Origin: Bacteroidales bacterium
GTDB lineage: Bacteria; Bacteroidota; Bacteroidia; Bacteroidales; F082
DNA length: 38,816 nt
NCBI GenBank assembly: GCA_029933565.1
Contig: JAOZNY010000001.1
Location: 4,356-43,171, forward strand
Reading direction: 5' to 3'
A program made the translations under genes and the position numbers. Within the stretch, counting starts at the first letter, position 1, and each line of letters starts with the position of its first letter. The notes under the pieces were generated by a model. The model was not told where the DNA came from. It searched no databases and worked only from the letters and a program-made list of their open reading frames with translations. Positions 31,388 through 38,816 of the stretch are shown here, piece by piece.

Positions 31388-31519
31388 TTGGAAAACCACC
31401 GTTCCTGAAAATACTGGACATGGTTGCTGCCTGAAAAATGTGCATAGACAAATTTGAAATATTTAAACATATAATAAAAACAATTCAAGAAAGCATGCTA
31501 GGCACGAGTCCCCTTTGTC

Positions 31520-31554
31520 AACTCCCAACTTCTAACTTCCAACTCCCAACCCTA
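31520..31554 (-). repeat. Heptamer array AACTCCC-AACTTCT-AACTTCC-AACTCCC-AACCCTA, including the glnN stop codon
   Basis: Five in-phase 7-nt units; the last contains the stop codon (cta = TAG on the minus strand). Confidence 0.7.
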
Positions 31555-36612: not shown

Positions 36613-36652
36613 TTCACGCAGCAACGCAACGAGGCAACAACACAACAACACA
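36613..36652 (+). repeat. Phase-locked octamer array TTCACGCA-GCAACGCA-ACGAGGCA-ACAACACA-ACAACACA
   Basis: Five consecutive 8-nt units all ending in CA, upstream of gmhA. Confidence 0.65.
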
Positions 36653-36675
36653 ACGTTTTTTTATATAATCCTTTT

Positions 36676-36880: not shown

Positions 36881-38152
36881 CTACCTCAAAATCTCATTGG
36901 CATAATTCTCCCAACTCATCTCTTTGGAGGTTTCGGCAACATTTTCCCTGTTAATAGGTTTTTCAATGGATTTAATCATTGCTTTTCCCATGGAAACAAT
37001 ATCCTCAGTTTCTGCGATATAACCATTAAAGCCATCAACTACAGTTTCGGGAAAATGCCCCACATTAGTGGCAAGCATTGGCATATTAAAATTATATCCA
37101 ATCGACTCAACACCCGAAGGCGTGGCATAAGAATAAAACAGCATTATCGAATCGCTGACCTGGAAATATTTACCTACTGCTTCGTTGGGTACGAACTCAT
37201 TGTCGATATAAACATCATTTTGCAGACCTAATTCTTCAACAAGTGCAAGAGGGTTGTAATTACGCTCGTCATCTTGTTTTTTCAAAAAAATTGACTTGGC
37301 CAACCCAAAGGTCGCATTTTTAATTTTTGTAGATAATTTATTGCTATCCAAAGTATTCCAAAACGATTCACCAACAATAAGCAGCGAAACATCATCTCTT
37401 TGTTTTGCAACAAGGTTAAATGCCTTAATTACATTGTGTAAACCTTTGTATTTTCTGATAAAACCAAAGAAAAGGAAAACATGTTTTTTAAGTTTGAGTT
37501 CCTGTTTTACTTTTTCTTTGTCAAACTCAGGGTCGGGCTTAAACATATCATAAACAGGGTGGTAAAGTTTCAGTACTTTTTGACCATTTCCGGTAATTTT
37601 CTTTTCCCTCTCAATTACTTCAAATTTCTTTTTTGGAAATAGAACTTTTAGTTCATCGGCAGTTTTAAAAGCATGTACAATGTATGAGTCGGCATGTTTT
37701 ATACCAATTTTGGTAAACCAATTATCCAGCGCACTCCCCTCCTTTTGAATTACAAAATGAAGATCGAAAAATATTTCTGCTTTGGTTTTCTTTTTCAATT
37801 TTCGTGCAATACTACCCATAGGAAGTCCTTGAATTGCAATTGCCCATTGAAAAATAACCTTATTGGGATTTAAGGATGCTATGAGTTTTGCTGTTTGACG
37901 CCAACTTGCAGGATTGTTGTAATTAGTTAGATAATGCACTTTAATACCTGTACCCTCTAATTGATCAATCTTACTTTTACGGTCGATAAAGTCGCGCGGA
38001 ATAATTGCCGGATACTGCTGAGTCCAGGAAACAATGTGGACTTCAGTGTCTTCCATTTTATCGAAAGCTTTTGCCAAAGAAGTATTGTAGTTAGCAATTC
38101 CCCCTTTAAACATTGGTCCGGGGCCGAAGCAGACTATTGTATTTTTACTCAT
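36881..38152 (-). CDS. Glycosyltransferase (GT4/GT1-like)
   Basis: VCFGPGPMFKGGIANYNTSLAKAFDK; KHVFLFFGFIRKYKGLHNVIKAF; MLFYSYATPSGVESIGYNFNMPMLATNVGHFPETVVDGFNGY. Confidence 0.9.
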   Translation of the reverse strand: MSKNTIVCFGPGPMFKGGIANYNTSLAKAFDKMEDTEVHIVSWTQQYPAIIPRDFIDRKSKIDQLEGTGIKVHYLTNYNNPASWRQTAKLIASLNPNKVIFQWAIAIQGLPMGSIARKLKKKTKAEIFFDLHFVIQKEGSALDNWFTKIGIKHADSYIVHAFKTADELKVLFPKKKFEVIEREKKITGNGQKVLKLYHPVYDMFKPDPEFDKEKVKQELKLKKHVFLFFGFIRKYKGLHNVIKAFNLVAKQRDDVSLLIVGESFWNTLDSNKLSTKIKNATFGLAKSIFLKKQDDERNYNPLALVEELGLQNDVYIDNEFVPNEAVGKYFQVSDSIMLFYSYATPSGVESIGYNFNMPMLATNVGHFPETVVDGFNGYIAETEDIVSMGKAMIKSIEKPINRENVAETSKEMSWENYANEILR

Positions 38153-38196: not shown

Positions 38197-38228
38197 TGGA
38201 ATAATGGAGTGTTGGAGTAATGGAGAAT
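38197..38228 (+). repeat. Octamer array TGGAATAA-TGGAGTGT-TGGAGTAA-TGGAGAAT (left flank of the four-helix-bundle gene)
   Basis: Four in-phase 8-nt units; a single TGGAGTGA also occurs at 38293-38300. Confidence 0.75.
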
Positions 38229-38322
38229 AGTTGTTTCATTCATTTCTATATTTCAAATAAAATACATATTATTTTCTTAACAATAAATTTATTGGAGTGA
38301 TGAATTTATGGGATAACTCATT

Positions 38323-38727
38323 TTAATAGTTCTCATCCCAGTCCTTATTTTTTATCTTTTTTTGAATTGACTCAGCAAGTTTTAGAAGTTCATTTTCTGT
38401 TTTAAAATGAAAGGAATCAAAACTTTCAAAATCGTTATCAGAAATAAACCCAAGTTTCTGAAAACTAATAATTCCACTATTTAGTTCACCACAAGACCCT
38501 AAAGCAAAATTTAGAAAATTTAAATATTCTTTTGGAGATCGCCTACAATATCCCTCTGCAATATTTCTAGTAATACTGTGTGCAGCATCAAGTATATTTG
38601 TTTTTGGCTTATTATAATCGTAGGGCAATTTCTTTAATAATTTATCAGAAAGAACAAATAACTCAACAGAATCCTGCCAAACCCTTAATTGTTTGAACCC
38701 TCTGTTCTTATTTCTCCTTTCAGTCAT
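38323..38727 (-). CDS. Four-helix-bundle protein, 23S rRNA IVP/S23 family, orphan (no 23S rRNA nearby)
   Basis: FKQLRVWQDSVELFVLSDKLLKKLPYDYNKPKTNILDAAHSITRNIAEGYCRRSPKEYLNFLNFALGSCGELNSGI: the family signature (LxVWQxAxxL...SIxxNIAEGxxR.s..eyl.FL.iAlGSl.EL). Confidence 0.93.
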   Translation of the reverse strand: MTERRNKNRGFKQLRVWQDSVELFVLSDKLLKKLPYDYNKPKTNILDAAHSITRNIAEGYCRRSPKEYLNFLNFALGSCGELNSGIISFQKLGFISDNDFESFDSFHFKTENELLKLAESIQKKIKNKDWDENY

Positions 38728-38753
38728 TTACTATCTTTGTTAGCCAAAATTTT

Positions 38754-38816
38754 TCCATCACTCCATCACTCCATCACTCCATCACTCCATCACTCCATCA
38801 CTCCATCACTCCATCA
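38754..38816 (-). repeat. Tandem octamer array (CTCCATCA)n = (TGGAGTGA)n on the minus strand, truncated by the window end
   Basis: Seven perfect CTCCATCA copies at 38761-38816, preceded by an imperfect TCCATCA. Confidence 0.95.

Follow-up and report, generated by a model that had tools for sequence, protein, structure and literature searches.

In the genome of a Bacteroidales bacterium (GTDB F082; GenBank assembly GCA_029933565.1), a gene of the 23S rRNA intervening-sequence protein (IVP) family and the two inverted octamer arrays on either side of it are best explained as one mobile element of the 23S rRNA intervening sequence (IVS) type, which resides between co-directional genes of an operon rather than in rRNA; we give this reading a probability of roughly two in three. 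The element occurs at the right-hand end of the window, i.e., the whole stretch of 38,816 nucleotides that was analysed (contig JAOZNY010000001.1, positions 4,356 to 43,171, forward strand). The original prediction, made from the letters of the window, was of a small, free-standing, IVS-like element closed by self-complementary arrays, and it is supported by the enrichment of such arrays at IVP genes, by filled and empty insertion sites, and by the arms of an IVS in rRNA.

Read directly in the window letters, the left flank of the gene consists of the octamers TGGAATAA TGGAGTGT TGGAGTAA TGGAGAAT (38197–38228) and the right flank of (TCCATCAC)n (38754–38816). Tandem Repeats Finder returned 3.6 copies at 76% for the former and 7.9 perfect copies (score 126) for the latter, by which the noted presence of inverted octamer arrays on both flanks is confirmed. 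The sole ORF between the arrays is the IVP gene (38323–38727, minus strand; 134 amino acids), whose family assignment was borne out by matches to PF05635 (E 3.5e-19) and TIGR02436 (23S_rRNA_IVP; E 1.2e-18) and for which the nearest solved structure is 2GSC (XCC0516). In the sense of the gene, the 5′ arm is the (TGATGGAG)n octamer array at 38754–38816 (minus strand), and the 3′ arm consists of the degenerate inverted octamers ATTCTCCA TTACTCCA ACACTCCA TTATTCCA at 38197–38228 (minus strand), which are complementary to the 5′ arm; a lone octamer, TGGAGTGA (38293–38300, minus strand), is located between the gene and the 3′ arm. The two arms are 84–86% complementary over 29–31 nt and pair with each other in the RNA fold of the element (z −6.9), in agreement with the earlier claim that the ends are able to pair around the ORF. 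No Rfam match to a known RNA family was found over the elements.

The window ends within the outer array. When followed on the contig beyond position 38816, this array enters a gap of 100 N and then resumes as (TCCATCAC)n (locus L011) as far as the stop codon of an epimerase gene (C252, about 43331); read along the gene, the array sets in a few nt past the TAG codon that terminates this upstream, NAD-epimerase-like gene. From the epimerase stop codon onwards, the order is thus (TGATGGAG)n, the IVP gene, the degenerate 3′ array, a spacer of 44 nt and the start codon of a downstream glycosyltransferase-like ORF (36881–38152, minus strand), the host gene that marks the insertion site. All three genes are co-directional; from reading their sequences, we take the two flanking genes to encode an epimerase and a glycosyltransferase. 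It is between these two genes, and not inside a 23S rRNA gene, that the window copy sits, and no rRNA was found at the nine own-genome IVP loci or at L011.

The IVP gene had been called an orphan, a label that is misleading because the genome harbours ten PF05635 genes. With the flanks read in gene orientation, nearly all ten loci have an array of 7–9-nt units before the start codon that recurs in reverse complement behind the stop codon, and each locus has its own unit: CAGGAGT (L001), TTGGTCA (L002), GTTCAGA (L003), GGTTATT (L004, where the 3′ side is off the contig), TGGAGTGA (window), GTTATCG (L007) and TTAAATGC (L009). C makes up 10.5% of the 5′ arm and G makes up 10.6% of the 3′ arm, so that little self-pairing is possible within either arm. 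The window carries two further period-7/8 arrays, at 31518–31550 (CAACTCC) and at 36615–36654 (ACAACACA), the latter resembling the unit of the IVP locus L007.

For each gene, we scored how well the 5′ flank matches the 3′ flank of that gene in reverse complement, with the 99th percentile of 258 control genes as the threshold. The suspected excess of array flanks over control genes turned out to be strong: 46 out of 89 IVP genes of relatives are above the threshold, against 3 out of 258 controls (Fisher 1e-28). The effect is gone (median 10) when the 5′ flank of one locus is paired with the 3′ flank of another, and the arm match is thus locus-specific. Among the 76 named genomes that made up a second sample (Bacteroidota for the most part, plus a few from other phyla), the median was 17 against 10 (Mann-Whitney p=6e-18), with only 5 of the 76 above the control 99th percentile, which was inflated there. 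A third, phylum-wide sample (n = 20) gave an own-pair median of 15.5 against 9 for cross pairs. Every sample includes some flanks with very weak arrays or none. Arrays are absent from the longer IVP subfamily (176–200 amino acids; L008, L067, L079, L087 and L099), an internal negative control; this conserved, array-less PF05635 subfamily is possibly a domesticated host gene. IVP proteins are present in 91 of the 119 sampled genomes of the host phylum. At L100, L108, L094 and L130, three to four IVP genes, some of them broken, are grouped within 5–16 kb, suggesting repeated or nested insertion at one place.

The site orthologous to that of the window element is empty in one sister species, decayed in two and occupied by a different, ORF-less hairpin in a fourth, a comparison that had been proposed at the outset. 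The empty site (G004) has no array at all. The remnants consist of the 5′ array plus the start of the IVP gene (G003) and of the middle of the IVP gene plus the 3′ array (G002), while the ORF-less hairpin (G001; unit GAGTTTT) directly follows the epimerase stop codon. Filled and empty sites were also found in Nostoc, where one strain has two related conjugative plasmids whose IVP elements occupy different junctions of a shared operon, such that each plasmid supplies the empty site of the other. At those junctions, the empty spacers measure 0–4 nt in most related plasmids and are without any array; in the filled sites, the element is located directly behind the stop codon. The absence of arrays from the empty sites in Nostoc and G004 implies that arrays and gene arrive together. 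As judged from these sites, the element is shown to span from array to array, with arrays, gene and insertion coming and going as one. There is no clear target-site duplication at the Nostoc junctions, which are ambiguous by 1–2 nt.

IVP matches on plasmids come almost exclusively from cyanobacteria (23 of 25 records). Of the IVP genes on cyanobacterial plasmids, 13 were inspected; every one has heptamer-like flanks, and in most of them the inverted pairs are clear (such as GGGAGTA/TACTCCC, GGGAACA/TGTTCCC, GGTGACA/TGTCACC, GGGTGTA/TACACCC). Operons interrupted by plasmid IVP genes include cas6-IVP-cas4 (L151 and L155), cas10-IVP-cmr3 (L163) and, with the IVP gene in antisense, nrdB-IVP-nrdA (L153); the IVP genes in the CRISPR operons, which have inverted arrays too, look like insertions. 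Furthermore, copies of one IVP element, with 78–81% nucleotide identity, were found in unrelated surroundings in Trichormus, Scytonema and Aulosira, and the match stops at the arrays. Between these copies at different sites, the IVP dN/dS is 0.10–0.14, so the protein has been kept functional across sites by purifying selection. The element encodes no transposase or nuclease, and a tblastn search of 50,697 phage records yielded no match.

An ORF-less element of ~190 nt with shared arms (AGTCAGG/AATTCAG) and two conserved inner hairpins is inserted within the IVP gene of one Nostoc plasmid (L164:1074–1262). Elements of this type are present at 107 places in Nostocales plasmids, the arms being conserved in seven aligned copies. 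In the genome of the window, a search with the octamer pattern allowing 3 mismatches gave 35 matches, against 0 for the reversed control. Pattern searches for three units uncovered dispersed families, although the reversed control of TTGGTCA was not clean, perhaps because the reverse resembles another array unit. In 258 kb of this genome chosen regardless of arrays, we found 16 arrays away from IVP genes, the units of which match the IVP units of their own genome at 0.40, against 0.196 for those of relatives (sd 0.038; 0/1000 random sets). Likewise, 45 ORF-less arrays in other genomes match own-genome units at 0.249 against 0.109 (0/300 random sets). Taken at the level of sequence, the comparisons show that unrelated sites carry the same element and that hairpins of the same unit, seemingly derived from it, are dispersed within the genome without the ORF.

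The similarity of IVP proteins does not go with the similarity of their units (Mantel r=0.04), being predictive solely between near-identical proteins. Fixed recognition of the unit by the protein on an evolutionary time scale was rejected for want of this correlation, which makes a fixed recognition sequence unlikely; units are rather replaced quickly, and the two arms change in step.

Among the 89 elements with clear arms, 83 are located in sense between the stop and start codons of co-directional genes; the others are in antisense (1), between convergent genes (3) or between divergent genes (2). Both neighbours are co-directional for 56% of the controls (67% for small genes). The 5′ arm begins at a median of 1 nt from the upstream stop codon, and the 3′ arm ends at a median of 12 nt ahead of the next start. 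Co-directional genes flank ORF-less hairpins as well, but seven of these hairpins are in sense and six in antisense, which differs from the 83:1 of IVP-bearing elements (Fisher 1e-5) on a small sample of 13 oriented cases. Since the ORF-less copies in Nostocales are of mixed orientation too, a sense bias inherent to the insertion mechanism was provisionally rejected. The simplest reading is that insertion has no strand bias and that IVP-bearing copies persist only if transcribed by the host operon. In terms of substitution pattern and orientation, the IVP sequence is shown to behave as one under purifying selection, with IVP-bearing copies kept almost only in sense.

The arrays could instead be ordinary intergenic repeats that grew by replication slippage and palindrome template switching, the IVP gene being a passenger that landed or survived in the loop of a hairpin. 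In favour of this, ORF-less hairpins are common and units drift independently of the IVP protein, but the empty sites in Nostoc and G004 lack any array, arrays cluster at IVP genes (107 within 300 nt, against 36 elsewhere in intergenic DNA; 1.4 Mb), and ORF-less units match those of the resident IVP genes; the passenger explanation is consequently unlikely, even if it leads the alternatives. Distinctly improbable is a regulatory module of benefit to the host, in which an operon-internal hairpin controls the processing or translation of the downstream gene and the IVP acts as autoregulator. Such a module would account for the sense orientation, the stop-to-start position and the purifying selection on the IVP, yet the same operon has an empty or decayed site in sister species, and the flanking genes (cas, nrd, conjugation, cell envelope) have no common function.

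The two other alternatives invoke a partner enzyme. Mobilisation of the hairpins in trans by a Y1 transposase (IS200/IS605 or RAYT), in the manner of REP sequences, would be coherent with the hairpin termini, the lack of a clear target duplication, the dispersed derivatives and the occurrence of Y1 in 25 of 31 relatives; it earns even less credence than the regulatory module, as Y1_Tnp is absent from the IVP-rich genomes G014, G015 and G017 and the window element encodes the IVP alone, with no Y1 transposase. The least credible of the four is a retroelement dependent on reverse transcriptase, in which the IVP acts like Avd of a diversity-generating retroelement and is mobilised by a resident reverse transcriptase. 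The IVP is homologous to Avd (PMC10053308), and the bAvd profile weakly matches two cyanobacterial IVPs, but there is no PF00078 match in the IVP-rich genomes G009, G014, G015, G017 and G018, ORF-less copies have no orientation bias, and the only RVT match of the window genome is on another contig (C111). The two enzymes are each weakened as an obligate resident partner by these absences: both are missing in G014, G015 and G017, and neither is thus required unless the copies there are dormant or the genes were missed in draft assemblies.

If the gene and its arrays are a mobile element of the IVS type, as we prefer, the element would lack its own promoter and depend on the host operon for expression. 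The C-poor 5′ arm and the G-poor 3′ arm would anneal to form a long stem, in RNA or in single-stranded DNA; the upstream gene would stop at one foot of this stem, and the next gene would start near the other. The IVP, a four-helix-bundle protein and relative of Avd, would bind the paired arms and might aid the copying or insertion of its own element and of same-unit ORF-less hairpins, host enzymes being used for cutting and copying. Slippage and template switching between the arms would keep them matched while the unit drifts. In rRNA, the IVS stem is cut out by RNase III, and a similar excision from operon mRNAs may happen.

A direct link to rRNA is provided by an unannotated IVS with an IVP ORF (L360:1439–1907) in the 23S rRNA gene (Rfam LSU) of Azospirillum lipoferum plasmid AZO_p2. 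From our reading of the flanking sequence, it is apparently positioned at helix-45, where the Coxiella IVS is located as well (PMC4990558). Inverted heptamer arrays form the ends of the Azospirillum IVS (CAGAGGACGGATGACAGAGGACGGAGGACAG against CTATCCGTCCTCTGTCTTCTGTCATCCGTCTTCTG) and are 86% complementary across 36 nt, and its fold has a z of −9.3; by its arms, this single rRNA case joins the classical IVS anatomy to that of the operon elements.

IVP proteins are very common and have no known function. The best solved structure for the family is 2GSC, which we take from the locus name XCC0516 to be a Xanthomonas campestris protein, and Xanthomonas, a bearer of heptamer repeats, therefore has an IVP gene as well. 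The window arrays are intergenic tandem units of 7–8 nt, as are the bacterial heptamer and STRR arrays. We tentatively propose, at somewhat less than even odds, that IVP proteins serve as the factor encoded by a large class of mobile elements that has so far gone unrecognised and whose termini are inverted tandem arrays with drifting units. The rRNA IVSs would be those few members that came to lie in rRNA, and the heptamer repeats known from cyanobacteria, Xanthomonas, Beggiatoaceae and Bacteroidota would be the dispersed derivatives; that these derivatives include the reported bacterial heptamer repeats is plausible. In the accessible excerpt of one paper, heptamer repeats in Beggiatoaceae, cyanobacteria and Bacteroidetes are presented with “no mechanism evident” (PMC4679880). 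In that of another, the heptamers of Xanthomonas and Nostoc are described as G-quadruplex repeats that separate aligned ORFs and are close to stop and start codons, with 70–75 inverted heptamer pairs in Xanthomonas (PMC4692102). The repeats are interpreted in these excerpts as regulators or G-quadruplexes, with no link drawn to IVP genes or mobile elements. Searches of open-access papers found no report of the IVP–array association, a scope that leaves priority uncertain.

Heptamer repeats have been reported more than once, with their spread left unexplained. The link between IVP and heptamers offers a candidate origin as well as a testable system, and a widespread mobile hairpin family may account for scattered reports of unexplained 7–8-letter bacterial repeats. 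Moreover, an IVP gene that turns up within a cas, nrd or conjugation operon has probably been inserted there and is not a member of that operon. Insertions of this kind in CRISPR operons may explain why “23S rRNA IVP” is listed in a figure legend on CRISPR adaptation-module associations (PMC10910872).

Several known systems share features with these elements. Avd of diversity-generating retroelements belongs to a homologous four-helix-bundle fold family, but no reverse transcriptase was found near the elements and template or variable repeats were not seen. Like MITEs, they have inverted termini (terminal inverted repeats are present) and derivatives without an ORF, such as the 190-nt family of Nostocales; unlike MITEs, their arms are tandem arrays and there is no clear target duplication. 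With REP sequences and RAYT, they have in common one small gene between hairpin sequences and many gene-less genomic copies, whereas their sole protein is a four-helix bundle and not a Y1 transposase. The STRR of heterocystous cyanobacteria, the TAACTGA repeats (PMC4679880) and the GGGAATC repeats of Xanthomonas (PMC4692102) are similar, in the excerpts of these papers, in being arrays with a period of 7 that lie between ORFs of the same alignment, close to stop and start codons. As in the 23S rRNA IVSs of Coxiella, Leptospira and Azospirillum, a single PF05635 ORF is enclosed by complementary ends that form a long stem, over about 420–600 nt; the operon elements differ from these in being located between protein-coding genes, in arms that are usually clear tandem arrays of 7–9 nt, and in occurring as multiple copies per genome, with differing units and dispersed ORF-less derivatives.
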